Below, piece after piece: positions 1,147-28,362 of a stretch of 28,517 nt of DNA (positions are counted from its first letter, which is position 1; each line of letters opens with the position of its first letter). The notes beneath the pieces are model-generated. The model saw only the letters and a list, made by a program, of their open reading frames with translations, ran no database searches and was not told the DNA's origin. Location: the IMG/VR virus record IMGVR_UViG_3300025012_000249, positions 1 to 28,517 of that record; one strand, 5' to 3'. A program made the position numbers and the translations under genes. Source of the stretch: a virus.

Positions 1147-1158
1147 GTTGACCCTCCG

Positions 1159-1533
1159 TTAGGTGCCCCAAACTATTACGCGCACATTTGTCACCGTAGC
1201 CGCCACGCCCGAGAGCGTGTACGTCTCCGCTCCCGGCGCGGGCATGATGTCCGCCGGCGACCCCGACGCGAGCAGGAAGACACGGCCCTGGAACGGACTG
1301 GACAGGTTCGTCGGTTTGATGAGGATGTCGGCCGGAGCTACGATCAGAATCCCGTAACTGGTTCCGATGCCGAGCGCCACAGGATCGATCACGACCGACC
1401 CGCCGCCGGTTGCCGGTACGTCTACCGAGATGTTCACCCACTCGTCTACGTCCACGGGCATGTCGAGCGCACCGCCGTTGACGTACGCGCTGTCGAGCGT
1501 GAGGGAGAGAACGGTGCGGAGGCTCTGCGCCAC
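1159..1533 (-). CDS. Small beta-rich structural protein (GTG start)
   Basis: 124 aa protein starting at GTG 1533-1531, which shares one base with the TAG stop of the upstream gene (1533-1535), so translation is probably coupled. AAGAGGAA lies seven bases upstream as the ribosome site. The protein (start AQSLRTVLSLTLDSAYVNGG after the initiator, end NVRVIVWGT) is a run of short hydrophobic strands with Gly/Pro/Ala turns, no cysteine and few charges, which fits a small all-beta virion protein. A longer reading of the same frame up to 2226 is excluded because it would overlap two better-supported genes. No family recognised; a structural role is inferred from its place between other virion genes. 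Confidence 0.7.
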   Translation of the reverse strand: MAQSLRTVLSLTLDSAYVNGGALDMPVDVDEWVNISVDVPATGGGSVVIDPVALGIGTSYGILIVAPADILIKPTNLSSPFQGRVFLLASGSPADIMPAPGAETYTLSGVAATVTNVRVIVWGT

Positions 1534-1751
1534 TATGTATTCCTCTTGCGTCCGGCGGCGGACCACTTGGCCATTTTCCCCACGCCGTACTTTTCTCGAC
1601 CCCTCGCGGCTGCAATCTTGCGCGCATGCTCCATCGACATGTCGGGGTCTTCCGCCATCATGTCGTCGATCATCATCGACATGCGCCCGCCCATGCCTGG
1701 TTTTGTGGACTTCCCGGCGTACTCTTTCGGCATGTGCTTCGACGCGAACAT
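1533..1751 (-). CDS. Small basic, methionine-rich protein
   Basis: 72 aa, ATG at 1751-1749 with GGGAG five bases upstream; its stop overlaps the next gene by one base. The N-terminal half contains a methionine-rich acidic stretch (MSMMIDDMMAEDPDMSMEHA) and the C-terminal third is strongly basic with KYGVGKMAKWSAAGRKRNT. Small proteins ending in a K/R-Y-G-x-x-x-M-x-x-x-x-x-x-G-R-K-R pattern occur in virion operons of environmental short-tailed phages; that resemblance is from memory and the role is unknown. The charge split (acidic helix, then basic tail) would suit a small DNA- or head-associated protein, but this is inference. Confidence 0.65.
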   Translation of the reverse strand: MFASKHMPKEYAGKSTKPGMGGRMSMMIDDMMAEDPDMSMEHARKIAAARGREKYGVGKMAKWSAAGRKRNT

Positions 1752-1760
1752 GGCTGCTCC

Positions 1761-2129
1761 CTACGTTGCGATCCTGTCGGCTTGGTACGCGCTCGTCGTC
1801 TCGGTCAGACCCGGATCGCAGTCGCCCTCGTTGTAGCACTTGACCGTTACTACGATCTGCACGCCCGGCCCCGGCGCCATGCCGGCCACGGTGAAGCGAA
1901 TCGCGTAGACGTGGTTCGTCCAAGCAGCCACGCCATCGGCGGCATTCGGACTGCCCGCGACGGTCCACCACAACCCGCCCTGAAAGTGCTGTTGCTCGTA
2001 GGCCACGTTGCCCACGGCGCCACCCTGCCGGTCGAACTCGACGAAGTTGTTTGCCTTCTGTCCCTTGGGCGAGACGGTCTGCGCGCTGTCGGCAAGGAAC
2101 GTGAGTTGCCGAAGATGGGTCGTTCTCAC
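1761..2129 (-). CDS. Small structural protein, paralogue of the 2126-2506 gene
   Basis: 122 aa, GTG start at 2129-2127 overlapping the TGA of the upstream gene (GTGA), with AGGA seven bases before it. The C-terminus (CYNEGDCDPGLTETTSAYQADRIAT, in two parts: CYNEGDCDPGLTETTS then AYQADRIAT) closely matches that of its upstream neighbour, and the middle shares the WTV-x-GSPN, Y-x-x-RFT and short-strand pattern. The two genes are therefore a tandem duplication. The predicted fold is a small beta-sandwich: alternating strands, W/Y-rich, no membrane segment. Its place among virion genes suggests a minor fibre, appendage or decoration subunit. No catalytic motif seen. Confidence 0.75.
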   Translation of the reverse strand: MRTTHLRQLTFLADSAQTVSPKGQKANNFVEFDRQGGAVGNVAYEQQHFQGGLWWTVAGSPNAADGVAAWTNHVYAIRFTVAGMAPGPGVQIVVTVKCYNEGDCDPGLTETTSAYQADRIAT

Positions 2130-2506
2130 GTCGCAATCCTGTCTGCCTGATAGCTGCTTGTGGACGGCGTGAGCGGCGGATCAACGTCGCCCTCGTTCCA
2201 GAGCTTGAGCGTTGCCTTGATCCCAACGGTCGGCGGCACGCCCTGCGTCAACGTGAAGCGGTACGCCCATGCGTTGTAGGCAGACCAAGTGTAGACCTCG
2301 TTGCCGTCGCCGAGCACGTTGGGGCTGCCGGGAAGCACGGTCCACGGCCCGTCCGCGACGTACTGCACTTCGTAGGCAAGAGACGCGGGGTTGCCGTCTA
2401 GGCGCTCCATTTCCAGTGTGGCGCGAGTCTTGTTGCCGTGTGGCCCCATCGTCACGACTTGGCCGTCGGTGGTGAGTGTCGATTGCTGGAGGAATGAACT
2501 GTTCAA
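2126..2506 (-). CDS. Small structural protein, paralogue of the 1761-2129 gene (TTG start)
   Basis: 126 aa. The best start is TTG at 2506-2504, preceded by GAGG with a six-base spacer; there is no ATG in this frame near the start. The protein is beta-rich (ATLEMERLDGNP, WTVLPGSPNVLGDG, WAYRFTLTQGV) and ends SSYQADRIAT, nearly identical to the end of the following gene. It is the first gene after the 1647 aa virion protein, separated from it by a 106-base gap, the largest gap in the minus-strand operon, so expression may be adjusted here. A small virion subunit is likely by context; which one cannot be told. Confidence 0.75.
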   Translation of the reverse strand: MNSSFLQQSTLTTDGQVVTMGPHGNKTRATLEMERLDGNPASLAYEVQYVADGPWTVLPGSPNVLGDGNEVYTWSAYNAWAYRFTLTQGVPPTVGIKATLKLWNEGDVDPPLTPSTSSYQADRIAT

Positions 2507-2515
2507 TCCAAACCT

Positions 2516-2544
2516 CGCGCATCACATGAAGTATTGCTTGTCAA
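2516..2544 (-). promoter_or_regulatory. Possible weak promoter upstream of the paralogue pair
   Basis: A perfect TTGACA hexamer lies on the minus strand (2544-2539) in the 106-base gap after the 1647 aa gene. The hexamer expected 17 bases later (2521-2516) reads TGCGCG, which is a poor -10 box. A 14-base inverted repeat, AAGTCC-AC-GGACTT, lies at 2543-2556 and overlaps the end of the hexamer. An internal late promoter or processing site is possible, but the missing -10 keeps this weak. Confidence 0.22.
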
Positions 2545-2612
2545 GTCCACGGACTTCCATGCCCTTTCACGGGCCGCTGGTATCGTACCACGGAAGTTGC
2601 GAGGGTCAAGGT

Positions 2613-5600
2613 TCATTTTTCACCCCGGATGCGTTCGATGTACTCGAATTGAAGCGACTGCTTCTGGCGCATCATCGCGGGGATCTGGCCGATGCTGTCT
2701 GCGTCGCCGGCCATTGTCAGGCGGGTGATCTCTCCTGTGAGTTCCGCAAGCCGTCGTTTGAGATCCGCAGCCAGCACCGCCTTTCGCTTCGGAACGTCAA
2801 CGGACGCGAGCTTCGTGCCGGACAACGCGCCCGCAACGGCGGCAGGCACCGACTGCACCGTCGTCTGGTGTGGCGCGGACTCGCCCCTCCATGCCGCTGC
2901 GATGGCCGGTGCCGTCCAGGAGATCGCCGGCGGCATGAGGAGTTGGCCCGCTCGTTCCGCTGCCCGTTCTCGCTTGATCTCCCCCGGCGCGGAAGCGGGC
3001 ACAAAGGGCTTGCCGGTGAACCAATCCGCGGACGGAGCCGGGCCAAGGCTGGTGCCAAGCATGAACGTTTGCGCCACGGGACCGCCGTAGACCATTTCCG
3101 ACAACGCCTGCGTGGCGCCACCCTCCCCGCCTTCCCGTTGCGGCGACCACAGCGAGCCGGCGGACACCATGTACTGCGATTGAACAAACATGGGTTTCCC
3201 GGTCGAGTCGCGGCCAACGAACACCTGCGAGCCACGGTACGCCGGGGATACCCGTTCCGCTTCCTCGACCTGCTCGGGCGTGTAGCCGCTCGCGTAGGAC
3301 AGGAATCGCTCGGACACGTCGCCCAGCGCACGCAGCGCCAGTGAGTGCAGCGGCCGGCGGCGGAAGTAGTTCGTGATCTGCTCCGCCGTCAGGGCCGTGA
3401 ACTTGTAGAACGGCGCGACGCCATAGCGGGATACAGCAGAAACCCAACCCGGCACGTCGGAGTAGTCAAGGAACGACTCGTAGGCGTGGCGTAGCGCGGC
3501 ACGCGGGCCGCCTGCGAGCATGGCCTGTGCGTCGTCACCCCAGAAGCCCGCGGCGCGCTTGAGGGCCTGTTTCGCGCCCGCTCCGCCGCCCTCGAAAGCT
3601 CGCTGCATCTCTCGGACGATGGTGTACGCGACGGCCTTGAAGTATTCGTCGGACGCCGCATACAGTTCTGCCGGCTTGTCGAGTCCCCACTTCTTCGCCA
3701 GTTTGAGCCAGTCCACGTCCTGCTTGACGCCGTTGCGTAGAGCAGCCCGCGCCTTCTCCCACGTCATGCCACCGACCGCATCCATGACAGCGGAACGCAT
3801 CCGAGAGTCGTCAAGCAAAGAGCGACCGCCTGACGCAGCACTCGCCGCCCGCCATTCGTCGAGGTCCGCACCGCCCTTGCGAAGTTGGCCCGCGACACGC
3901 GCGTAGACTTTCGCGTTGTCCACATGCCACGGCGCGAGATTGCCCATGACCGCCTGATTGAAAGTCGCGTTGATGAAGTTACGGGGCAAGGCGCCGACGT
4001 TGTAGGGCCAGAGAACATGGACTTGCTTCCACGCCTTGACGCCGGCCTCTCCCTTGGCTAGCCACCCCACGGACCGCGTTGCACCCTCGTTCAAGTCCTC
4101 AAGCAGTTGGAGCGCGTCCCAGACTTCGGGCGACACGGCCTTGCCGGCGAGCGGGCCGTAAGACGGTCTGCCGCTGGCGAGCTTCGTGACGGGCACGCGC
4201 TTCCATCCCGACGGCAACTTCGCTTCGGAAGTCACGGCGCCGGGCAGTTCCGACACGCCCTTCATGAACTCTCCGCGAGACACCGCGTTGGCAAGCCGGA
4301 ACGTGGTATCGCGGACCACGTTGGGGCCGTCCGCCATGAGTTCATATGCTTCCTTGAGCGTTTGCATCGGAAGGTCGCCGATGATGCGACGCGCGGCCAT
4401 GTCCTGCCCGTCGCTCTTGAAGCGCAGGAACTCGCCGTACCGGGCCGCAGCCGCTTCAACGGCCGAATCCGTCCCGAGTGCTTCCTGTACGACTTTCATC
4501 TTGAGCGCGAGTTCGGGATTCTTCTTGAGAAGCGCATCCCAATCATAGCGCCGAGACAGGTACGATCCAAACCGCTTAATCAGGTCTTCGCCTTCGATGA
4601 TGCCGAGTTCGGCCGCACGGGCACCGAGGTTGTCGATGACCTGGCGGACGGGCTGCACGATATCGCGGACAAGGCTCCGGTTTTCATCGGACATCTTCGG
4701 CAACTTCGGGGTGCGCATCTTGGGCGGCTCTGTAGGCTTTGCCGCAACCATCCTCCCGCCCGGTCCCTCTGACACCACGAGTGGCGGCTGGCCCTCCGGG
4801 GCGAGCGTGATCGGCTTGAACGGCGTCGGCAGTCCGCCGCGTGGCGGAGGTATCAGCGGCAGTTCTCCCTGGACCGCCGCGCCATCGGGCAGTCCGCGCG
4901 GCGGGCCGGGGTACGCCTCTCCGGGTCGCAAGAATGGCACCTCCGGCGCGTCGCGCTTGCCAAGCACGCCCGTCGGCCCGGAAGGCGGCAGCGGTCGCGG
5001 TCCCTCCGGTGGTGCCCCAACGGCGAACCGGGATTCTTGCTCGGGAAGCGGCGCTGTTGGCGGTCCAACTTTGGGGCGCGGCCGGCGGAGAACGGACGGC
5101 GGGCCGCGCTGCTCGGTTGCCTCAAAGAGACGCGGTTCCGGGGGCGGTGGCGTGACCTCGACTGGCCCCATGCGAAGCTCGCCCGTGGCTTTCTCGGGCG
5201 GCGGCGTGAATTCTCGCGCAAGTTGAATGTCAGATTCGCCAGTCGCCGCGACGTCCGGGTACTCGGCCAGCACTCCGGGGGCAATCGGATGCCCTTTCTC
5301 GCGGAGCTTTGTGACGATCTCCCGGTGCGCTTCCCGTAACGCCACGGCGCGGTTGTAGGGGTGCATGTTCTGGATCTCGGGGCGCCCCTGAAAGCGAGCA
5401 ACGAACTGGTCTGCGGTCACGTCGAACGCGCGCAGTGGAGCAGCGCTCTGGTTCTTGAGTACTTCGTAAACGATCTGCGGCGCGGCGATGGTTGGCTTTG
5501 GTAGCGGTTTTCCGGCCACTCTCTCGGCCGTCTTGGCCGCCGTCGAGAACCCCGGCGGAGGCATGATCGGGAAATCCACCCGCTCTGCCCCCACGATGTC

Positions 5601-7556
5601 CGGCGGCAGCTTCTCCCAATCCACGGGCCGGGACCAGGGAGCGCCCGCAGAGAAATCGACGCCCTCACGCACGGGGGTGGGTAGCCCCCCGATGGTCTGG
5701 CCCGGCTTCGGCGCAGGCCCCTTCTCCGGTAGTGGAAACTCAATCTCCCGCTGGTTTATCGCGGCGACGGGCTCGCCGAGTTCGGGCGGGCCGGTGCGTT
5801 CCGGCGCGGGTCGAATCGGCACGCCGGTCTGCTCCTGCTTTTCTTGGAAGGACAGTCGCCACGGCGCTTCCTGTGGTGGCGCCCTGCCGGAGTCCACAGG
5901 CACGTACTCGACGGTAAGCCCCTTGAGCTTCGCCGCGTCAGGGGGCAGATCCTTGGGCTTGTAGACCTTGCCCGCCGCATCTCGCCACTGGACCGTGACG
6001 CCGTACTCTTCCAGCGTCGGCGGCAGTTCCTTGTCGCCCGCGAACTGCCGTGCGAGCAGCTTCTTGCGCATGAACTCGCTGCCGTCCAGCCCCTCCGGCT
6101 CGTCTACCATCTTGAGGCGAGCGAGCGTCACTTCGTCGTCGGGAAGCGCGACCTTGCCGCCGTAGCGCGCCTGCGTCTTCGGGTCAACCCACTGCGTCGA
6201 GCGACCCTCCAGCGCGACTTGCTTGCGCCAGTGTTCCGGCTGCGCGTGGACGATCTCGGTGAACAGGTCGCGGGTCTTCGTTACTTCACCGGAAATGGGA
6301 TGTACCGTGTCCTCTGCCATTCCATACAGTTTCGACAGAGCGGCCTCGGCAGCGATCCGATCTTCGACGCCCGGCATCGTCTGCGTTCGGGCCAACGCCC
6401 GAAGTTCCGGCGAAAGCGTCTCGATTGCCGCCGTGGGTTTCAAGACGACACGACGCGCGGCAGAACGCAGCGACGGCGGCATGATGTCTGAGCCCGCAAT
6501 GAACTTGCTTGCGTCGTAGACGTACGACCCGGGGAGCGGCAGGCCCGTGGCTGTCAACCCGAGTTTGACGGGCGCCGCAGCGGCTTGACCGCCCGCGGCC
6601 TTCATCACCCTGCCTACTTTGCCGACGGTCTTCAGCACGCCCGCGAGCTTGGGAATCCGCGTGGACAGCCGTTCAAGCGCGGTGAGGATCGACCCGCCGC
6701 CACTGAGCGGAATGGCGAGAATCTGCCCGACCATCACCGGATCTTCTTCCCACATTTTCGAGAGGACGCCCACGGGATCGGCGGCGAGCACCTTGCCGAA
6801 CTCGCCCAGTTGCTCCGCCGTGTCGATGGCGGTCTCCGCGATTGCGCGCTGTGTCACCGGGTCTCGAAGGACGATACCCGGCGCGGCCTTACCGAGAGCC
6901 ACGGCAGCAGCCAGGGTGCCCTCCCCCACCGCAACGACGCCGCGACGCACTTTCTCAGGGAACGACGGTCTCCAGTCAATGGGCTCCTTCTCGCCAGATA
7001 CGCCCGTCTCCACTTCGGACGGTCGGATGCCAGTCATCTCTTCGCGGATCTCCGAGAGGTTCACTAGTCGGCGTTCGTTCGCGGCCTTGCGCCACGCGGC
7101 CTTGCGTTCGACTTCCTCCCCCTGTATCTCACTGAATGGGCCCTTGATCTCGGCGATACGTCCGAGTTTCCGAGCCGCTTCCGGCGACCATCCATAGACA
7201 CGGCGGGGCTCGGCGCCGGGTTCATCCACACTCGGCCCCGGAAGTTGAAACCCCGGAGTGCGCCCGATGCCCATTCCGGGCTCCTTTACGGTCACGGGTT
7301 GGATGCCGGGCGGCAGAGGATGCGGCGTCTCTAGTTCTATCTCTCGCGCGGCTACGGCTTGGCTCTGTCGCCGTTCGTCTGCCGCGCGTGCCACCGTCTC
7401 AGGGGACTGGATGAGCGATGCGGGCTCCTCGGGCAGCATGGACGTGCCGAGTTTGACCAGGAACGAGTCCGCGGGCGGAGTGATGGCGTTGCGGGTCGCG
7501 AGTTTCCTGAGATCCTCGATGTCCTTGAGCGCATCTTGTGTGACAGGAAGAGCCAT
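2613..7556 (-). CDS. Giant internal virion protein (1647 aa)
   Basis: 1647 aa, ATG at 7556-7554, starting five bases after the stop of the 468 aa gene. Regions in order: charged N-terminus; hydrophobic Ala/Gly-rich segments at about residues 200-230 and 268-345 that could be membrane-active; a disordered Pro/Gly-rich linker at about 800-935; and a helical C-terminal region from about 985. The last contains LWPYNVGALPRNFINATFNQ (about 1180-1200), YAASDEYFKAVAYTIVREMQ (about 1297-1316) and FLDYSDVPGWVSAVSRYGVA (about 1358-1377) followed by PFYKFTAL. This ordered set (Asn/Arg-rich helix, E/F-K helix, DYSD followed by FPFY-like) is characteristic of very large phage virion-associated or polyvalent proteins. 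Position after the nozzle-like and beta-helix genes matches genes for proteins ejected with DNA. No lytic transglycosylase motif (catalytic ES with GxxQ) or peptidase motif was spotted. Role in ejection is inference. Confidence 0.85.
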   Translation of the reverse strand: MALPVTQDALKDIEDLRKLATRNAITPPADSFLVKLGTSMLPEEPASLIQSPETVARAADERRQSQAVAAREIELETPHPLPPGIQPVTVKEPGMGIGRTPGFQLPGPSVDEPGAEPRRVYGWSPEAARKLGRIAEIKGPFSEIQGEEVERKAAWRKAANERRLVNLSEIREEMTGIRPSEVETGVSGEKEPIDWRPSFPEKVRRGVVAVGEGTLAAAVALGKAAPGIVLRDPVTQRAIAETAIDTAEQLGEFGKVLAADPVGVLSKMWEEDPVMVGQILAIPLSGGGSILTALERLSTRIPKLAGVLKTVGKVGRVMKAAGGQAAAAPVKLGLTATGLPLPGSYVYDASKFIAGSDIMPPSLRSAARRVVLKPTAAIETLSPELRALARTQTMPGVEDRIAAEAALSKLYGMAEDTVHPISGEVTKTRDLFTEIVHAQPEHWRKQVALEGRSTQWVDPKTQARYGGKVALPDDEVTLARLKMVDEPEGLDGSEFMRKKLLARQFAGDKELPPTLEEYGVTVQWRDAAGKVYKPKDLPPDAAKLKGLTVEYVPVDSGRAPPQEAPWRLSFQEKQEQTGVPIRPAPERTGPPELGEPVAAINQREIEFPLPEKGPAPKPGQTIGGLPTPVREGVDFSAGAPWSRPVDWEKLPPDIVGAERVDFPIMPPPGFSTAAKTAERVAGKPLPKPTIAAPQIVYEVLKNQSAAPLRAFDVTADQFVARFQGRPEIQNMHPYNRAVALREAHREIVTKLREKGHPIAPGVLAEYPDVAATGESDIQLAREFTPPPEKATGELRMGPVEVTPPPPEPRLFEATEQRGPPSVLRRPRPKVGPPTAPLPEQESRFAVGAPPEGPRPLPPSGPTGVLGKRDAPEVPFLRPGEAYPGPPRGLPDGAAVQGELPLIPPPRGGLPTPFKPITLAPEGQPPLVVSEGPGGRMVAAKPTEPPKMRTPKLPKMSDENRSLVRDIVQPVRQVIDNLGARAAELGIIEGEDLIKRFGSYLSRRYDWDALLKKNPELALKMKVVQEALGTDSAVEAAAARYGEFLRFKSDGQDMAARRIIGDLPMQTLKEAYELMADGPNVVRDTTFRLANAVSRGEFMKGVSELPGAVTSEAKLPSGWKRVPVTKLASGRPSYGPLAGKAVSPEVWDALQLLEDLNEGATRSVGWLAKGEAGVKAWKQVHVLWPYNVGALPRNFINATFNQAVMGNLAPWHVDNAKVYARVAGQLRKGGADLDEWRAASAASGGRSLLDDSRMRSAVMDAVGGMTWEKARAALRNGVKQDVDWLKLAKKWGLDKPAELYAASDEYFKAVAYTIVREMQRAFEGGGAGAKQALKRAAGFWGDDAQAMLAGGPRAALRHAYESFLDYSDVPGWVSAVSRYGVAPFYKFTALTAEQITNYFRRRPLHSLALRALGDVSERFLSYASGYTPEQVEEAERVSPAYRGSQVFVGRDSTGKPMFVQSQYMVSAGSLWSPQREGGEGGATQALSEMVYGGPVAQTFMLGTSLGPAPSADWFTGKPFVPASAPGEIKRERAAERAGQLLMPPAISWTAPAIAAAWRGESAPHQTTVQSVPAAVAGALSGTKLASVDVPKRKAVLAADLKRRLAELTGEITRLTMAGDADSIGQIPAMMRQKQSLQFEYIERIRGEK

Positions 7557-20726: not shown

Positions 20727-21283
20727 CCACCCCTGACTACCTCATGGTTCGAGCCGGCGCGCAGACGTGCTCGCACCCGCCGACACTGCGCGCTCTGTTC
20801 GAGGAAGTGGGCCGCATCTTCCCCGACGTGCTCATCGGTAAGAAGCCGGAGACGTGGCTTTCGGGCCGCGTCGTCGCCAACATTGAGACGGAGATCAACG
20901 AGCAGAAGGCTGTCGTGGCCAAGCGTGCGTGTGTGCGCCAGGACTTCGGGCGACGTGGACCGCCGCGCGGATTCGTCAAGCACCCGTTCCACGATTCGCG
21001 CCACTTGCGGGTCAACACGGGCGTCTACATGCTCTTGCGGCGTGCGCCGGGCATGGTTTGGCTGCGGCTTTCCAACTACGTGCGGCCGGGCAGCAAGCCA
21101 CCCGACGGTACGGTCAAGGAAATCATCCTGACCGTGCGCCTTGGGGGGAGCGCGGCGAACCTCGACCACGCCTACGGCATGGAGCCCGTCATCACCATCG
21201 ACTCGACGCACGCCCACTTCACATACAAGCGCAAGCCGCTGTGGACCGAAGGCACGGTCAAGGAAACTCGCACAGTGTCATGA
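20723..21283 (+). CDS. Unassigned protein upstream of the terminase (186 aa)
   Basis: 186 aa, ATG 20723 overlapping the upstream stop, with GGAGAG in AAGGAGAGAAGGCA before it. Its own TGA overlaps the terminase ATG (21280-21283), so the three genes are translationally coupled. N-terminal helix TLRALFEEVGRIFPDVLIGK, helix-rich middle, then strands VNTGVYMLLRRAPGMVWLRL and VKEIILTVRL. No helix-turn-helix, ATPase or nuclease motif could be picked out. The position fits a small terminase or packaging factor by synteny, but the sequence shows no small-terminase signature, so the assignment is left open. Confidence 0.65.
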   Translation: MTTPDYLMVRAGAQTCSHPPTLRALFEEVGRIFPDVLIGKKPETWLSGRVVANIETEINEQKAVVAKRACVRQDFGRRGPPRGFVKHPFHDSRHLRVNTGVYMLLRRAPGMVWLRLSNYVRPGSKPPDGTVKEIILTVRLGGSAANLDHAYGMEPVITIDSTHAHFTYKRKPLWTEGTVKETRTVS

Positions 21284-22851
21284 AGTGGGCCAACGAAGAC
21301 GAGTACATCCGCGACACCCTGACCGACCTGCGCGTCTGGTCTGTCAACGAGTGCAAGATTCGCCCCGAAGAGGGCGGTGTCTTCGTTCCGCTCCACTACA
21401 AGTCGCCGCAGATCGACGCACTCGCCGCCCTGGAGCTTGCACGCAAGCACACCAACCGCGTGCGCATCGTCCACTTGAAGGCCCGTCAGATCATGGCGTC
21501 CACGTTCTGGGCCTCGGTCTTCACGCAGAACACGGTGCGCGACTCACTGAGCATGGGCCTCGTGCTCGCGTACCAGTTGAAGACGACTCGACACGTCATG
21601 CGCATGTACCGCAACGTTTTCGATCACTTGAATCTAATGGCAAGTCACATACATCTCACAAGCAAAGGTATTGAGACACACGTACTCAACACTGGAGCGA
21701 TGATCGAATCGGCATCAGCGAAGAACGCGGCGGGAGGCCACGGACTCACGCACTCCTGGGTCCACGCCACCGAGGTTTCCCGCTGGCAGGACGCCGAAGA
21801 GACGTTGCAGGCCATCGGCCCGGCGGCACAGCACGCGCACACCATCGTCATGGAGTCCACGGCGGCAGGGCGCGGCGGTCTGTTCCACCAGACGTGGAAC
21901 GAAGGGCTCGACGCGGAGGAATGGGTCAAGAAACGGCGTGGCTATTTGCGCGTCTTCACGGGATGGTCGCGCAGACCCGACTATCGCATCCCCGTCGGCG
22001 AACAGCCACTCGTCTACACCGCTGAAGAGGCCAACATCGTTGCCAAGTACGCGCTCGACGCGGAACAGATCGCGTGGCGGCGGCAAACCCTCCAGGACGT
22101 GTGTCGCGGGCGCGTCTCTCGATTCCAGGAGGCATACCCGATCTGCCCCGAAGAGGCGTTCACGTCCAGCGGCGCAGGCGCAATCACCCCGGAGGCCCTG
22201 ACCGCGCTGATTCGGTGCGTCGAAGAGCCGATTCATCGCGACGGGGACACGTGGATCTGGGAAGAGGCCGAGCGCGGTGCAACCTACGTCATCGGCGTGG
22301 ACCCCGCTGGAGGAGGCCCGCGTGGCGACTTCGGCGTGGCCTCCGTGCTGCGCATCGTGCCCGGGGGCGTCCCCGTCATGGTCGCCGAGCACGCGGAACG
22401 ATGCCGCCCCAGCGTCCTTGCCGCCATCGCCGTGCGTCTAGCTTACCGATACGGCCAGGCCCTCGTCGGCGTCGAACGAACCGGCCTCGGATTGGCCTGC
22501 TGCGACGAAATGCGCCGCATCGGCTACCACCACGTCGTCAGCGACATCCACGGCAACGCCGGCATCCCTATGACCGCGGCCCTGAAGCGCACGGTCTGCG
22601 AAATCGGCCGCGATATCGCCGAAAGTGGCGAGGGCGTACGTTCCTCGCGCCTTCTCGACGACCTATCCGATCTGCGCGACGACGGCCGCGTGCTCGAAGC
22701 ATCCACCGGCAGCCACGACGACTGCTACCGCGCGTGGTGTCTCGCGCACTGGATCGCTCGTCAGCGCGTCCAGAAGATTGCGACGCGCCGTGAGCCCGGT
22801 CGCCGCCGACAGTCCCGAAACCGCATGAGCCCACTCGACATGGGCCTGTAG
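21280..22851 (+). CDS. terL: Terminase large subunit (ATPase and nuclease)
   Basis: 523 aa from ATG 21280 (ATGA overlap with the preceding stop); a longer open frame to 20929 overlaps the upstream gene and is not used. ATPase domain: Walker-A-like LKARQIMAST at residues 66-75, Walker-B/catalytic acidic region SWVHATEVSRW at 159-169 (Glu165), coupling motif MESTAAGRG at 191-199, and the family segment CPEEAFTSSG at 289-298. RNase-H-like nuclease: YVIGVDPAGG with Asp341, VGVERTG with Glu399, and SHDDCYRA with Asp480/481. All key acidic residues are present. The Walker-A-like loop has Met where many relatives have Gly (ARQIM rather than ARQIG). Cleaves and pumps phage DNA into the prohead through the portal. 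Codons around 21626-21690 are AT-richer than their surroundings. Confidence 0.9.
   Translation: MKWANEDEYIRDTLTDLRVWSVNECKIRPEEGGVFVPLHYKSPQIDALAALELARKHTNRVRIVHLKARQIMASTFWASVFTQNTVRDSLSMGLVLAYQLKTTRHVMRMYRNVFDHLNLMASHIHLTSKGIETHVLNTGAMIESASAKNAAGGHGLTHSWVHATEVSRWQDAEETLQAIGPAAQHAHTIVMESTAAGRGGLFHQTWNEGLDAEEWVKKRRGYLRVFTGWSRRPDYRIPVGEQPLVYTAEEANIVAKYALDAEQIAWRRQTLQDVCRGRVSRFQEAYPICPEEAFTSSGAGAITPEALTALIRCVEEPIHRDGDTWIWEEAERGATYVIGVDPAGGGPRGDFGVASVLRIVPGGVPVMVAEHAERCRPSVLAAIAVRLAYRYGQALVGVERTGLGLACCDEMRRIGYHHVVSDIHGNAGIPMTAALKRTVCEIGRDIAESGEGVRSSRLLDDLSDLRDDGRVLEASTGSHDDCYRAWCLAHWIARQRVQKIATRREPGRRRQSRNRMSPLDMGL
21653..21677. repeat. Operator-like dyad inside terL
   Basis: ATCTCA (21653-21658) and TGAGAC (21672-21677) form inverted half-sites separated by 13 bases. 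The same half-sites occur in the array at 24356-24507, there separated by three bases, so the spacing differs by ten bases, about one helical turn. The dyad lies in an AT-richer patch of the coding sequence. It may be chance; see findings. Confidence 0.25.
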
Positions 22852-24355: not shown

Positions 24356-24507
24356 GTCTCACATTGAGACGGTGCTTGTCTCACTTTGAGACGGCGGTCC
24401 GCCCGGTTCCACAGCGTCTCACCTTGCGAATCGTGCCTCATCGTGAGATTGCAATGGTTGCGCGGGGTTGGGTGTTTTTGGGCGGTTTCGGCGTAGCACC
24501 GTGAGAC
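24356..24507. promoter_or_regulatory. Array of operator-like inverted repeats GTCTCA-N3-TGAGAC
   Basis: Two perfect 15-base copies, GTCTCACATTGAGAC (24356-24370) and GTCTCACTTTGAGAC (24378-24392), start 22 bases apart and share flanks as well (TGTCTCAC, TGAGACGG). Three weaker copies follow: GTCTCACCTTGCGAA (24416-24430), GCCTCATCGTGAGAT (24435-24449) and GTAGCACCGTGAGAC (24493-24507), the last with only its right half intact. The array lies 150-300 bases upstream of the first accessory-arm gene. Repeated dyads of this size at this place fit operators of a phage repressor or sites for a replication or partition protein. No matching binding protein is visible in the window. Confidence 0.6.
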
Positions 24508-24626
24508 TGCGCGAGGCGGGATGCATCTGGCTGCGATGCGCGCAATCTCGCGCCGTTGCTAGGGTTACGGGGTATTTGCGGGTTTTCTTCGGCGATGGCA
24601 CTGACGTTGCAAGGGTGGCCAAGTGT
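24508..24626. other. Intergenic region before the accessory arm
   Basis: Between the operator-like array and the first right-arm hairpin. It contains ATGCAT and a few GC-rich stretches; no clear -35/-10 pair was found by eye although a promoter is expected here for the plus-strand arm. Confidence 0.3.
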
Positions 24627-24641
24627 GCCGCGTGATGCGGC
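24627..24641 (+). promoter_or_regulatory. Start-associated hairpin 1: GCCGC-GTGAT-GCGGC
   Basis: Perfect 5-bp stem with loop GTGAT. The stem ends directly at a G-rich ribosome site (24642-24647), 12 bases before the ATG at 24654. First of a family of hairpins in the same position before right-arm genes. Confidence 0.55.
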
Positions 24642-24653
24642 GGGGGGTTCGAG

Positions 24654-25115
24654 ATGATGAACGAACACACTATCCCGACCACGATAAGAGACTACCCATT
24701 CCACCAGAAGAACGACCACCTCAGCGAGGCTGACGCTGCCCGCTATGGACGGCCCACGGCCCACGTCGCATTCTACGCGGCAATCACGACTGCGGCCGAC
24801 GAGCAGAACTGGCCGACTGACTACCACTCCGATCTGTATTTCCACGACCGGCGGCACGACGGCACACCGTGCATCTGGATTCTCCGGGAATACGGGACGG
24901 CAATTGTCCCCATTGAATTCGAGAGCGAAGTGGCCGTCAGATCGTGGATGGGTCGCGACAACTTCCAGTGGATCGAAACGTTCATCGATCTCAGTCCGCA
25001 GCACTATCACTGGAACGGACTGACTCTCCGCCGCATCACGGGAAAACAGGCAGTGGACTTGATGCGGGACGGGCGTGAGCGGTTCAACGAGCGACGGCGG
25101 ACAACGCTGCGGTAG
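24654..25115 (+). CDS. Unassigned accessory protein (153 aa)
   Basis: 153 aa from ATG 24654 (a second ATG follows immediately at 24657; either may be used). Ribosome site GGGGGG is fused to hairpin 1. The protein is alpha/beta with a W/Y/H-rich core: YHSDLYFHDRRHDGTPCIWI (about 58-77), LREYGTAIVPIEFESEVAVR, then WIETFIDLSPQHYHW, and a basic C-terminus. Codon use is less GC-rich than in neighbours, with ATA and AGA present, which may mean recent acquisition. No family recognised; it is the first gene downstream of the operator-like array and so probably the most strongly controlled gene of this arm. Confidence 0.65.
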   Translation: MMNEHTIPTTIRDYPFHQKNDHLSEADAARYGRPTAHVAFYAAITTAADEQNWPTDYHSDLYFHDRRHDGTPCIWILREYGTAIVPIEFESEVAVRSWMGRDNFQWIETFIDLSPQHYHWNGLTLRRITGKQAVDLMRDGRERFNERRRTTLR

Positions 25116-25123
25116 TGCGCTGC

Positions 25124-25139
25124 GCCCGCGTGAGCGGGC
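25124..25139 (+). promoter_or_regulatory. Start-associated hairpin 2: GCCCGC-GTGA-GCGGGC
   Basis: Perfect 6-bp stem, loop GTGA, which as RNA is a GNRA tetraloop. The stem abuts AGGAG (25140-25144), the ribosome site of the gene at 25152. The surrounding bases are nearly the same as around hairpin 3. Confidence 0.65.
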
Positions 25140-25151
25140 AGGAGAGAGACG

Positions 25152-25316
25152 ATGAGAAAGCAGCAGTGCACCGAATGCGAGCGGCCCTCTCTGCCCGGTC
25201 TCAAGCGTGGACATGGCAAGTGTGACTATCACTGGGCTAAGGGGGTGTGGGGGGAAAAACACGCAGATAGAGTAGCCGCTAGTCGGCTACGTACCACGCT
25301 CAAGAACATCCGATAG
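25152..25316 (+). CDS. Small zinc-finger-like protein (54 aa)
   Basis: 54 aa from ATG 25152, AGGAGAGA eight bases or less upstream, ending in TAG at 25314-25316. The N-terminal half contains CTEC and, 19 residues after its last cysteine, CDYH, giving a C-x2-C / C-x2-H arrangement usual for small zinc-binding domains. The C-terminal half is basic (RVAASRLRTTLKNI). The protein is below usual gene-calling length, but ribosome site, start-associated hairpin and ordered cysteines support it. DNA or RNA binding is the natural inference. Confidence 0.6.
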   Translation: MRKQQCTECERPSLPGLKRGHGKCDYHWAKGVWGEKHADRVAASRLRTTLKNIR

Positions 25317-25329
25317 TGGGAGTGCGAGC

Positions 25330-25345
25330 GCCCGCGAGAGCGGGC
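25330..25345 (+). promoter_or_regulatory. Start-associated hairpin 3: GCCCGC-GAGA-GCGGGC
   Basis: Same stem as hairpin 2 with loop GAGA, again a GNRA tetraloop. It abuts AAGGAGAG (25346-25353) before ATG 25357. Confidence 0.65.
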
Positions 25346-25356
25346 AAGGAGAGACC

Positions 25357-25581
25357 ATGCTTGCGGTTTCGGCCGATGCGATCAACGCCCACCTCCGGGC
25401 GGGGGGCCGTGTCGTCGTGGCCACGTATGGCCGCGCCGTGGTCTACGGTCCACGCAATGCGGGCGACTTCACCGAGGGCAAGGTGTCCGGAAACCTGTAC
25501 GTGCGACGCGGGCGTTCGCGGGACTGCCTGACGTTCAAGGGCGGGCGGGAACTGCTCGTGACGATCCGGCTTTCGATCTAG
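25357..25581 (+). CDS. Small beta-rich protein (74 aa)
   Basis: 74 aa from ATG 25357, ribosome site AAGGAGAG directly after hairpin 3. The sequence is Gly/Val/Arg-rich with alternating strands (AGGRVVVATYGRAVVYGPRN, then GNLYVRRGRSRDCLTF), ending in LLVTIRLSI. A basic small beta-barrel is a reasonable guess for the fold. No family recognised. Confidence 0.6.
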   Translation: MLAVSADAINAHLRAGGRVVVATYGRAVVYGPRNAGDFTEGKVSGNLYVRRGRSRDCLTFKGGRELLVTIRLSI

Positions 25582-25591
25582 GTTTCATTTG

Positions 25592-25606
25592 CGGGCGTGG
25601 TGCCCG
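25592..25606 (+). promoter_or_regulatory. Start-associated hairpin 4: CGGGC-GTGGT-GCCCG
   Basis: Perfect 5-bp stem with loop GTGGT, extendable by a G-U pair (25591/25607). GGAGG begins at 25608, before ATG 25620. The stem sequence is reversed in purine/pyrimidine sense relative to hairpins 2 and 3, yet pairing is kept. Confidence 0.6.
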
Positions 25607-25619
25607 TGGAGGTGCTGTC

Positions 25620-26438
25620 ATGCAGGACTACACAAGCGAGGTTACGAGACTGAGGGCGGAGCTGGCTACGGTGGAGCTGGCCGCGCGTGACGCGGCACTG
25701 ACAACCGAAACGGATCGGGTCCGCCGGTTGCTCGCGGTTCCGGCACCGGGCTGGGTTGCGGCGTTGCTCGGCACGGGCGACGATCCTTTGTCCGAACAGG
25801 AAGCGGCGTTGTTGCGCGTGGTGACGGGCGACGTGCTGCCGTCGATGCCGCGCATGACGATGCTGGGGATCGCTTACGACGCAGCCCGGGTGGCGCCCGC
25901 GTTGCCCAAGGATCGGACGGGCTACCCGGCCGCGTGGTTGCGCAAGCTGGCCCGGTGCGGCGATCCCGGCACGATCTTGGGGACCGTCCGGTTCTTGGAC
26001 GCGGCACCCATGGTCAAGACCATGACGAGGGGCGAGCACAAGGGCGAGACCGTCGCCTTGGACAAGCGCAAGTCGTTTCACTTGGACTTGGCGCGGCAGT
26101 GCGTCAAGTGGCTGTCGAGTCCGGCGTTGCCTTCGGGTGACGTCAAGGGCGGGGGTGACTACGCCTCCCCGCTGTCGTTCCGGCAGCGCAAGTACTGCCC
26201 GGCGTTCCGGTCCACCGAGGGCGCCTTGCCGTGGGCTTACGATGCGGTGCGCGACGTGTTCGCCACGGCCAAGACCCCGGCGCCGGTTCTGGTTCCGCCG
26301 GACTCCCCGGACTTGGACGATGAGGTTGACGCGGCGGTTGTGGCTGCGCCGGACCCGCCGGACTGCGATGCGGACGCGGACGACTTCTGCGCGTGGGTGA
26401 TGGCCGGCAACGGCGGGCAGGACGCATTCCAGTTCTGA
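25620..26438 (+). CDS. Unassigned protein with coiled-coil start and acidic tail (272 aa)
   Basis: 272 aa from ATG 25620 with GGAGG seven bases upstream. The N-terminal helix (YTSEVTRLRAELATVELAAR) is coiled-coil-like; the core (about 75-205) contains a basic region YPAAWLRKLARCGDPGTILG and RGEHKGETVALDKRKSFHLD; the C-terminal part (about 220-260) is strongly acidic (DSPDLDDEVDAAVVAAPDPP) and the last residues are DAFQF. An acidic tail with a hydrophobic tip recalls single-strand DNA-binding proteins, but no OB-fold can be recognised by eye, so this is only a suggestion. The long minus-strand frame covering this gene and its neighbours is a shadow. Confidence 0.65.
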   Translation: MQDYTSEVTRLRAELATVELAARDAALTTETDRVRRLLAVPAPGWVAALLGTGDDPLSEQEAALLRVVTGDVLPSMPRMTMLGIAYDAARVAPALPKDRTGYPAAWLRKLARCGDPGTILGTVRFLDAAPMVKTMTRGEHKGETVALDKRKSFHLDLARQCVKWLSSPALPSGDVKGGGDYASPLSFRQRKYCPAFRSTEGALPWAYDAVRDVFATAKTPAPVLVPPDSPDLDDEVDAAVVAAPDPPDCDADADDFCAWVMAGNGGQDAFQF

Positions 26439-26476
26439 TCGTTGCCCGGCGGGGCGATCATGCTCAAACCGCCGGG
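26436..26476 (+). promoter_or_regulatory. Alternative RNA stems after the 272 aa gene
   Basis: TGATCG (26436-26441) pairs with CGATCA (26455-26460), with an inner CCC/GGG pair (26445-26447/26451-26453). Alternatively CCCGGCGG (26445-26452) pairs perfectly with CCGCCGGG (26469-26476). The two foldings compete for 26445-26453. There is no T tract. Confidence 0.4.
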
Positions 26477-26482
26477 ACCATT

Positions 26483-26497
26483 GCCCCGTGGTGGGGC
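26483..26497 (+). promoter_or_regulatory. Start-associated hairpin 5: GCCCC-GTGGT-GGGGC
   Basis: Perfect 5-bp stem with the same loop, GTGGT, as hairpin 4. The ribosome site AGGGG (26504-26508) follows after six bases; ATG at 26514. Confidence 0.6.
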
Positions 26498-26513
26498 GAG
26501 AAAAGGGGATACA

Positions 26514-26861
26514 ATGAAGACAGAGAAACAGATCATCCGCTACGAGTGCAAGGTGAACGGGGTGTTCGGACGCAACCGCAAGGTGAAGCTGGCTCACTTC
26601 ACGATTCTGGACGCGCCGGCAGAGTGCCCGGTTGCGGTGGAAACCCTGCTGCCCGCGTTCCGGGCGAAACTCGCCGAGATCGCGTTCAAGGGTGGAGTGG
26701 CCAAGGTCACGGGGACGCCTATCACGGTCACAACCTACTACGAGGGCGCGGTGCCGGTTTCGACTTCCGAGGCGTTCTACCTCTTTTCGGGCGAGGTGTT
26801 GCACCGGGAACAGATCGAGGGTGCGGGCGTGACATTCCGTGCGGCGGGGGGTGCGGCATGA
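26514..26861 (+). CDS. Unassigned alpha/beta protein (115 aa)
   Basis: 115 aa from ATG 26514, chosen because AAAAGGGG is five bases upstream; an ATG at 26442 in the same frame lies inside the hairpin region and has no ribosome site. Strands KTEKQIIRYECKVNGVFGRN and KVKLAHFTILDAPAECPVAV are followed by a helix (LLPAFRAKLAEIAFKGGV) and strands (KVTGTPITVTTYYEGAVPVS). It ends in a TGA that overlaps an ATG (26858-26861). The same reading frame stays open beyond the stop; see the next gene. No family recognised. Confidence 0.65.
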   Translation: MKTEKQIIRYECKVNGVFGRNRKVKLAHFTILDAPAECPVAVETLLPAFRAKLAEIAFKGGVAKVTGTPITVTTYYEGAVPVSTSEAFYLFSGEVLHREQIEGAGVTFRAAGGAA

Positions 26862-26918
26862 GTTGGCGAAACCGCGGCTGTCCGTCGCGCGCTTGCGGCG
26901 GCTGGCATTGACGCCCAA

Positions 26919-27359
26919 GTGGGGCACGGCCAAGGTACGGCTTGGAGTTGGCTTGAGATCAACATCGGCGCCGGCGAACAATGGGGCGAGCATATCCCGC
27001 CTCGGGGGGACCGGCAGCGATTCTGCGAGGGAGCGGAAGCCGGGTGCGCGCGGTGCATCAACCTGCGGATCATGGGGGAGGAAACGCATCGGATCGTTCG
27101 GGAAGTCACGGGCCGGGACGGGGACCACAACGGAAACATCCTGGTTCTCACGCAGGGGGCGTGGAAGCGCAAGGATTCGCGGATCGTGCATCCTCGCTGG
27201 CGCAACCGGGTTGCGGAACCGGCGGGCGACGCTCTGGCGCGCGACACGGCACACTGCGACGCCTGCGAGCAGGACTGCGAGGGGTGCAAGTTGGCACAGG
27301 GGATCGAATGGCGCGCCGGACAGTACGTGCGGCTGTCGCTGCAAGCCGCCTCGTTGTAG
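26919..27359 (+). CDS. Cysteine-containing accessory protein, N-terminus probably disrupted
   Basis: 146 aa if started at GTG 26919, the first start codon in the frame, but that start has no ribosome site. The frame is open upstream to 26862 and reads VGETAAVRRALAAAGIDAQV, a normal-looking helix that runs into GHGQGTAWSWLEINIG, so the true N-terminus probably lies about 20 residues earlier. An ATG with a good ribosome site exists at 26858, but in another frame (one base out), where it ends after 17 codons. The remainder carries cysteines in CARC and later CDACEQDCEGC (about residues 113-123), a likely metal site. A +1 frameshift, stop read-through or a one-base sequence error would each restore the gene. 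Confidence 0.6.
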   Translation: MGHGQGTAWSWLEINIGAGEQWGEHIPPRGDRQRFCEGAEAGCARCINLRIMGEETHRIVREVTGRDGDHNGNILVLTQGAWKRKDSRIVHPRWRNRVAEPAGDALARDTAHCDACEQDCEGCKLAQGIEWRAGQYVRLSLQAASL

Positions 27360-27369
27360 GCCGAAACCG
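27357..27369 (+). repeat. Intergenic 13-mer TAGGCCGAAACCG, copy 1
   Basis: TAGGCCGAAACCG includes the TAG stop codon of the upstream gene and is found again at 28104-28116, also beginning with a stop codon. Confidence 0.5.
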
Positions 27370-27386
27370 AACACAAGGAGGATACG

Positions 27387-28106
27387 ATGAACACAAGGGA
27401 AAGACTGGAAGCCAAGGTCGAACGGCGGGAAGAGTGGGCGGAGGGAAGGCGGGCAAAGGCGGCGGTCGTGTTCCGCGAGGCGGAGCACTTCCACGGCGAC
27501 TACGCATTCAACACGCAGCCCGGCCACATCCCGGAGCGGGCGAGGCTCATTCGTCGGGAAGAGCACGCATTCGAGGACATGAAGATGGCCGACCACCATG
27601 ACAGCAAGGCCGCCGGACTGGCGCACCAGCTTGACCGCTCCGTGTTCTCCGACGACACGGACGCAATCGAGAAATTGGAAGCACGGATTGCGGAACATGA
27701 GCGCACGCGGGACAGGATGAAGCAGATCAACGCGCTCTACCGCAAGGGCGACGCGACCGGGCTCACGGCGCTGGGGCTGAACCTCGACACGCTCCGCGCC
27801 AAAGTGGCCAGCATCGGCATGTCCTTCGTGAAGGTGCCTTTCGAGGGTTTCCAGTTGACGAACCTGGGCGCGCGCATCCGTTCCGACAAGGAGCGCATCG
27901 AGGAGATCAAGCGACGCACTGCCAGAACGGAAGCAGCGGAGGCCAATGGCGGCGTTACCATCGAGGGCGCCGAGTACGTCCGGGTTACGTTCGCGGAGAA
28001 GCCGGAGCGGGACATCCTGGAAGCACTGCGGGGCGCGGGTTTCTACTGGCAGGGCGGATCGTGGTGCGGCAAGCGGGAAGCGTTGCCGGCAAGCGTGGGG
28101 GCATAG
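27387..28106 (+). CDS. DUF3560-like protein (239 aa)
   Basis: 239 aa from ATG 27387, AAGGAGG five bases upstream. Residues 1-40 form a charged helix, followed by EHFHGDYAFNTQPGHIPERA, the H-x-x-x-x-x-x-x-QPG/PGHIPER type segment, AFEDMKMADHHDSKAAGLAH, and SDDTDAIEKLEARIAEHERT (about 89-108). A long coiled coil and GFQLTNLGARIRSDKERIEE (about 153-172) follow, with a C-terminal small domain ending near WQGGSWCGKR. This order matches DUF3560 proteins of phages and plasmids, which are of unknown function. Among right-arm genes this is the best family match. Its stop codon starts a 13-base sequence repeated between genes. Confidence 0.75.
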   Translation: MNTRERLEAKVERREEWAEGRRAKAAVVFREAEHFHGDYAFNTQPGHIPERARLIRREEHAFEDMKMADHHDSKAAGLAHQLDRSVFSDDTDAIEKLEARIAEHERTRDRMKQINALYRKGDATGLTALGLNLDTLRAKVASIGMSFVKVPFEGFQLTNLGARIRSDKERIEEIKRRTARTEAAEANGGVTIEGAEYVRVTFAEKPERDILEALRGAGFYWQGGSWCGKREALPASVGA

Positions 28107-28116
28107 GCCGAAACCG
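28104..28116 (+). repeat. Intergenic 13-mer TAGGCCGAAACCG, copy 2
   Basis: Second copy of the 13-mer at 27357-27369; its end overlaps the first stem of hairpin 6. Both copies start with the stop codon of the upstream gene. Confidence 0.5.
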
Positions 28117-28148
28117 GGCGTCTGCCCGGTCCGCGGGTAGTGCCCGCG
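28113..28148 (+). promoter_or_regulatory. Start-associated hairpin 6: double stem-loop
   Basis: ACCGGGC-GTCT-GCCCGGT (28113-28130, perfect 7-bp stem) is followed by CGCGGG-TAGTG-CCCGCG (28132-28148, perfect 6-bp stem). GAGGAGG (28151-28157) follows two bases after the second stem, before ATG 28162. The intergenic space is almost entirely filled by these stems. Confidence 0.6.
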
Positions 28149-28161
28149 CTGAGGAGGCCAG

Positions 28162-28362
28162 ATGATGCGAGTAGGACCGCTCTACGTGCCGACCGTCCTT
28201 TATTTCTGCACGTCTGGCCGCTGGTATGCGGCGGCCGGGTATGTGTGTTGGACGCGGGGGATGCTCGCGGCGGGTCGGGCGCAAGTCGAGTGCCCGGCCG
28301 GCTACGTCACCTGGCCAGCAACATGTTCCGGCGGTCCCTGGCCGCTGAAGGAGGCCACGTGA
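28162..28362 (+). CDS. Small Cys/Trp-rich protein (66 aa)
   Basis: 66 aa from ATG 28162; a second ATG at 28165 has a better distance (seven bases) to GGAGG and may be the real start. The sequence is rich in Tyr, Trp, Cys and Gly (VGPLYVPTVLYFCTSGRWYA), with four cysteines in all, and has no clear membrane helix. Its TGA overlaps the GTG start of the next gene. No family recognised. Confidence 0.55.
   Translation: MMRVGPLYVPTVLYFCTSGRWYAAAGYVCWTRGMLAAGRAQVECPAGYVTWPATCSGGPWPLKEAT

Follow-up and report, generated by a model that had tools for sequence, protein, structure and literature searches.

A predicted type II hammerhead ribozyme sharing its core with a Shine-Dalgarno sequence, and five plain start-associated hairpins, in one arm of a phage contig

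Introduction

Type II hammerhead ribozymes, which occur in phages and bacteria, are established residents of the spaces between phage genes and often lie at a stop codon (PMC3088659). In these ribozymes, stem II, GAAA, stem III, UH, stem I, CUGANGA and stem II follow one another (RF02276; PMC3088659). According to a published view, the transcripts of phages may be divided into gene-length messages, and a 2011 survey described the biological role of the many hammerheads in phage genomes as unproven (PMC3088659). Start-associated sequences (SAS) and extended start-associated sequences (ESAS) of cluster K mycobacteriophages are repeated directly before starts, and only in the non-structural arm (PMC3203893). 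Here we analyze IMG/VR record IMGVR_UViG_3300025012_000249 (positions 1-28,517, hereafter the window), 28,517 nucleotides (nt) of virus DNA with a GC content of 64.6%. Six genes of its right arm had been predicted to carry one family of hairpins next to the Shine-Dalgarno (SD) sequence. We find that the arm holds two kinds of start-associated RNA structure, not one family of six: the last hairpin is assigned to a type II hammerhead that holds the SD of gene 28162, and the other five are plain hairpins that form a coherent set by their loops.

Results

A complete type II hammerhead is predicted at 28106-28159

An Rfam scan of the arm (5.7 kilobases, kb) returned Hammerhead_II at 28106-28167, full length, with 30.1 bits and an E value of 0.0041. 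Furthermore, a 501-base search against all Rfam families matched positions 1-66 of the 66 of RF02276 with the same score and an E value of 3.6e-4. Matches to mir-484, mir-995 and snoU82P were far below cut-off and were dismissed as chance. Judged from its sequence, the element at 28106-28159 is a type II hammerhead ribozyme, read by hand as TA-GGCC-GAAA-CCGGGC(GUCU)GCCCGG-UC-CGCGGG(UAGUG)CCCGCG-CUGAGGA-GGCC-AG-AUG. Its parts are as follows.

28106..28159, plus strand: complete predicted type II hammerhead, located after gene 27387-28106 (from the last base of its stop) and before ATG 28162 (RF02276 match, core bases, three helices, fold)
28106..28109, plus strand: stem II 5' strand GGCC, sharing its first base with the 3' end of stop TAG 28104-28106 (sequence)
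28110..28113, plus strand: core GAAA, G12 A13 A14 A15.1 (sequence, Rfam alignment)
28114..28129, plus strand: stem III hairpin CCGGGC-GTCT-GCCCGG (stem search, hammerhead scan)
28130..28131, plus strand: U16.1 and C17, with predicted cleavage after C28131 (Rfam alignment position)
28132..28148, plus strand: stem I hairpin CGCGGG-TAGTG-CCCGCG, the sixth of the predicted hairpins (stem search, Rfam alignment)
28149..28155, plus strand: core CUGAGGA, C3 to A9, base 7 being G (Rfam alignment, hammerhead scan)
28152..28157, plus strand: SD sequence AGGAGG within the core and the stem II 3' strand (sequence; association of G at base 7 with nearby starts)

No core base and no pair next to the core that Perreault et al. 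2011 (PMC3088659) call for is missing, and C1.1-G2.1, G10.1-C11.1 and A15.1-U16.1 are all paired. Stem III (6 base pairs, bp) and stem I (6-7 bp) are closed by hairpin loops and stem II (4 bp) is open. In isolation, the 54 nt have the hammerhead structure as their predicted minimum-energy fold.

Core bases A6-G7-G8-A9 and the GG that opens the stem II 3' strand make up the SD AGGAGG; ATG 28162 follows two bases past the 3' end of the ribozyme. Core CUGAGGA and stem II thus supply the SD, so that ribozyme and ribosome site are the same bases. Typical type II hammerheads, in contrast, end about 26 nt before the start and have a separate SD.

Related phage hammerheads and the base 7 subclass

We scanned IMG/VR for type II hammerheads with a sequence-only pattern, which listed at least 139 distinct matches. 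Both hairpins and the cleavage dinucleotide were present in 117 of the 139 matches listed, versus 0.15 expected when the inner bases were shuffled; this is a fairer control than shuffling the locus, which also destroys the core pattern. Across all loci fetched, the 152 distinct hammerheads identified start at a stop codon (median distance 0 nt, quartiles -1 to 3), with a median of 26 nt between their 3' ends and the next start, where one was found. This placement agrees with the view that phage transcripts may be divided into gene-length messages (PMC3088659). In the phage contigs L046, L061, L029 and L049, type II hammerheads number four to nine per contig and usually occur singly at gene junctions; L046 has nine within 8.5 kb.

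Base 7 of the core is seldom G: among the matches listed in the unselected scan it was T in 78, C in 57, A in 7 and G in 3 (n = 145). A complete scan for G at this position (G7) found an open-frame ATG within 0-9 nt in nine of 24 structural hammerheads. When base 7 was not G, an ATG lay within 9 nt in one of 122 among the matches listed (Fisher p 2e-7 against G7). G7 is tied to a nearby start, which fits a role for this base in the SD. A pattern requiring the SD-in-core layout matched 23 contigs, nine of them further phage contigs with a structurally complete hammerhead, ATG 1-7 nt after CUGAGGAGGC and different, compensating stems.

We aligned 12 G7 hammerheads: each of the 14 pairs counted was kept and nine had changed on both sides, with a covariation of 0.60 versus 0.21 when shuffled and 0.05-0.15 when slid. 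Since these sequences had been chosen by a pairing rule, the inner-base shuffle gives the stronger support. Read from predicted pairs, genuine covariation exists among hammerheads of unrelated phages. The remark in the original prediction that the six stems of the window are "covariation-like" was circular because these stems, of unproven homology, had been picked for perfect pairing; the one clear pair of paralogues, 25124 and 25330, do not differ in their stems.

These comparisons bear on the idea that all six hairpins are plain stable leader or spacer helices that aid initiation and message stability, the likeness of one of them to a hammerhead being accidental. All six do lie at a similar distance from the start (11-16 nt), and other GC-rich phages have plain hairpins fused to the SD, as in contig L081, where AAGGAG or AGAAGGA comes after each of eight GCGGCGANGGACGCCGC copies; in phage loci with a GC content above 0.55, we counted 49 SD-adjacent hairpins against 28.6 expected, an excess of about 1.7-fold. 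However, the accidental assembly of a full core, a cleavage dinucleotide and three helices is unlikely given the E value of 3.6e-4 and the 0.15 chance structures among the 139 matches listed. Furthermore, the TAGTG loop of stem I, with its closing G-C pair, recurs in other phage hammerheads and differs from the loops of the other five hairpins. We consider this explanation very unlikely.

The spacer at 27357-27386, TAGGCCGAAACCG-AACACAAGGAGG, is perhaps a collapsed hammerhead: its first 13 nt match the stop codon and the 5' part of the hammerhead (28104-28116), and the remainder is absent.

Hairpins precede six of the eight right-arm starts

The six perfect GC stems were confirmed at 24627-24641, 25124-25139, 25330-25345, 25592-25606, 26483-26497 and 28132-28148, near starts 24654, 25152, 25357, 25620, 26514 and 28162. 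They end 12, 12, 11, 13, 16 and 13 nt before the start codon and have the loops GTGAT, GTGA, GAGA, GTGGT, GTGGT and TAGTG, respectively. The five without a hammerhead are listed here.

24627..24641, plus strand: start-associated hairpin GCCGC-GTGAT-GCGGC, 12 nt before ATG 24654
25124..25139, plus strand: start-associated hairpin GCCCGC-GTGA-GCGGGC, AGGAG directly after, 12 nt before ATG 25152
25330..25345, plus strand: start-associated hairpin GCCCGC-GAGA-GCGGGC, AAGGAG directly after, 11 nt before ATG 25357
25592..25606, plus strand: start-associated hairpin CGGGC-GTGGT-GCCCG, TGGAGG directly after, 13 nt before ATG 25620
26483..26497, plus strand: start-associated hairpin GCCCC-GTGGT-GGGGC, 16 nt before ATG 26514

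We counted starts with a perfect stem of at least five GC pairs and a loop of 3-8 nt that ended 8-18 nt before the start. Six of the eight right-arm starts passed; the two without a hairpin are 27387 and 28359. Chance might be suspected, given stems of only 5-6 bp in DNA of 64.6% GC; comparable hairpins occur at 3.7% of positions in the arm. In the comparison with shuffled sequence that the original prediction had proposed, dinucleotide shuffles of the same upstream regions gave a mean of 0.22 starts, or 0.27 when the last 12 nt were kept, and equal frequency was not reached, the maximum being three of the eight in 2000 rounds. Elsewhere in the 35-kb composite used as comparison set for starts and hairpins, only one other called start (16684, minus strand) has a comparable hairpin, about the number expected by chance. 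The six hairpins are real and far more frequent than chance allows; as an explanation of the set, chance is refuted and scarcely credible, although it could still account for a single member.

The stems might instead serve the preceding gene at its end, as 3' stabilizers or RNase processing sites brought close to the SD by short spacers. A stop codon does lie 8-44 nt before five of the six hairpins, two spacers have a second hairpin near the stop (26443-26475 and 28113-28130), and the hammerheads of other phages start at the stop codon. However, the distance to the start (11-16 nt) varies less than the distance to the stop, no gene was called in the roughly 1.2 kb that precede hairpin 24627, and a terminator U-tract is absent from all six. 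We regard this explanation as improbable. A test for intrinsic terminators placed none of the six stems among terminator-like sites, and no sigma-70-like promoter was detected before the hairpins of the window.

Like the cluster K elements, the hairpins recur directly before starts in the non-structural arm only; they are nevertheless different, as had been predicted. SAS is a fixed 13-mer, GGGATAGGAGCCC (PMC3203893), which at three mismatches matched eight times versus 8.3 expected, never at a hairpin-bearing start. For ESAS, whose inverted repeats do not support pairing at the RNA level, the authors favor DNA binding (PMC3203893).

Five plain hairpins share a loop

The five remaining hairpins have no hammerhead core, as the sole plus-strand copy of CTGANGAG in the arm is at 28149, and no Rfam ribozyme matched at 24560-26560. 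In the spacer before 26514, a second stem, CCCGGCGG/CCGCCGGG, with a 16-nt loop lies upstream of the 26483 hairpin.

All five fit C(GWGR[U])G, a GWGR(U) loop closed by a C-G pair, and no others do among the 58 hairpins of the composite whose loops have 4 or 5 bases. Among hairpins of other GC-rich phage loci, 18 of 2138 (0.84%) have it. This motif was defined after seeing the five.

Such a common loop would be expected of binding sites for a phage- or host-coded RNA-binding protein, that is, of a translational operator, which is the main rival explanation for these five. It gains from the restriction of the loop, which no other hairpin of the same size shares in 35 kb, and from the grouping of the five in one arm, each directly before the SD. 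However, the motif was drawn from the very hairpins that it describes, and no RNA-binding protein was recognized among the products of the arm by family matching. Stability alone moreover favors GNRA-type loops, GUGA and GAGA among them. We therefore consider an operator unlikely. Most likely, the five are leader or spacer helices that would keep the SD open and protect the end of the message.

Comparable elements occur in the uncultured phages L081, L049 and L005, in which a GC hairpin near or fused to the SD is repeated at several genes. Each of these phages has its own stem, and in contrast to the window a sigma-70-like promoter can be seen by eye before most of the L081 copies and before two of the three SD-near copies of L049. 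On the L081 minus strand (770-6908), the eight GCGGCGANGGACGCCGC copies stand directly before SD and start, most of them behind a TTGACA...TATGAT-like promoter, as a repeated leader cassette. In L005, a GCGTAGTA(C)-type motif is repeated before genes at 2361-4900, in three cases followed by a GCCGC/GCGGC-type hairpin and CCTGGGAGG, and a gene at 6740-7215 contains a long tandem repeat with GCGAC-containing units.

A scan for GCCCGC-GNRA-GCGGGC followed by SD and ATG matched 12 contigs and was discarded: in the largest group, a stop mostly comes right after the ATG, which is thus no gene start.

Genomic setting of the arm

Minus-strand genes occupy most of the left part of the window, followed by a plus-strand arm with the terminase gene (21280-22851). 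The stretch of about 1.2 kb without a called gene separates the terminase from the small plus-strand genes that begin at 24654. Two of these flank the predicted cleavage site.

27387..28106, plus strand: gene upstream of the hammerhead (weak primase-family match, phrog_19458; sub-threshold DUF3560 match)
28162..28362, plus strand: gene with its SD inside the hammerhead (66 amino acids, aa; no family match; ATGATG, alternative start 28165)

IMG/VR protein searches with the products of genes 24654 and 25620 found no relatives, and the product of gene 27387 retrieved two near-identical contigs with one homologue at 47% identity. The window terminase matched only contig G001 in IMG/VR and had no match in genome contigs; megablast of the window DNA against phages gave no match either. 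None of these searches yielded a close relative that carries the arm. G001 is 99.88% identical to window positions 1-23336 and extends 6.7 kb further left.

The gene caller preferred an antisense open reading frame at 25578-27698 over the plus-strand genes. It was set aside because the plus-strand genes have SDs and one has family matches. This minus-strand frame of 706 aa lies opposite four plus-strand genes and is probably a by-product of GC-rich codon use.

Six GTCTCA/TGAGAC half-sites, of ten in the whole window, lie at 24356-24507 within the gene-free stretch. Four of the six form two GTCTCAC-N-TTGAGAC inverted pairs, which resemble repressor operators. A protein frame at 26862-27356 follows TGA 26859-26861 of gene 26514 in the same frame; its first normal start is GTG 26919, and readthrough, an odd start or a base error are the options.

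Discussion

Taken as a whole, the arm is probably best explained by an SD-holding hammerhead at 28106-28159 together with five plain leader or spacer helices. Several observations weigh against this explanation. The score of 30.1 bits is below the curated gathering cut-off of 37 for RF02276, and when about 30-60 nt of upstream coding sequence are added the predicted minimum-energy fold is no longer the hammerhead. The 12-sequence alignment was drawn from sequences preselected by a paired-stem descriptor. G001, the only near-identical contig, lacks the hairpin-bearing right arm and thus allows no check of conservation in a close relative. Hairpin 24627 lies outside the predicted minimum-energy fold of its region, and any function of the five plain hairpins is putative. 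Finally, most type II hammerheads use a contact between loop I and the tail. Inspection of the 28106 element found no 4-bp Watson-Crick match of UAGUG with the tail AGAUGAUG, and no pseudoknot of this kind is evident; it is common in type II hammerheads, not universal. A contact of the loop I-tail type was found in about 40% of all hammerheads (PMC3088659).

The identity, anatomy and recurrence of the ribozyme are read from sequence, and from these we infer cleavage, product release and an effect on translation. The polycistronic RNA would fold the hammerhead during transcription and self-cleave at the C28131/C28132 bond. The stem III hairpin would then form the end of the upstream message, and the downstream message would open with the stem I hairpin and continue as CUG-AGGAGG-CCAG-AUG. 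While folded, the hammerhead would keep AGGAGG occupied by the core and stem II. After the cut, the 4 bp of stem II would be the sole helix joining the two pieces, so that the 5' piece could leave and free the SD. The ribozyme would thereby separate two cistrons and may release the ribosome site of the second.

Precedents exist for parts of this scheme. In the haloviruses HF1/HF2, a hammerhead lies 13 nt upstream of the start of a helicase gene and the 5' end of the transcript was mapped within three nt of the cleavage site (PMC3088659), a direct precedent for 5'-end formation. Like the 28106 element, it stands just before a start; it differs in being a core-variant of an archaeal virus, and an SD is not mentioned for it (PMC3088659). 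Hammerheads of an Agrobacterium tumefaciens fragment cleave in E. coli (PMC3088659). The SD-in-core arrangement is not mentioned in PMC3088659, whose main text has neither "Shine" nor "ribosome"; the literature covered was mainly open-access. Among the roles that the original prediction had suggested, one at the mRNA end is best supported for gene 28162, in the form of 5'-end formation. For the five other genes, the candidates are a site for an RNA-binding protein, protection of the 5' end, and a helix that acts as standby site or insulator.

At the five other genes, a 5-6 bp GC helix in the 5' leader or intercistronic spacer could keep the SD clear of larger structure in a transcript of 65% GC and shield the end of the message. 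The order hairpin, SD, start would be the same final layout that hammerhead cleavage would give gene 28162. We tentatively suggest a ribozyme-gated SD, in which a phage hammerhead core merged with the SD cuts the RNA at the stop codon and frees the next SD, while plain hairpins give other genes a leader of the same end state; this full scheme is possible, if somewhat doubtful.

Hairpins fused to an SD should be checked for ribozymes before they are called operators. The G7 subclass of phage hammerheads, in which a base that is normally U or C is replaced by the G that makes the SD of a near start, would link the ribozyme directly to translation initiation and gives it a testable function, the release of the SD by cleavage.

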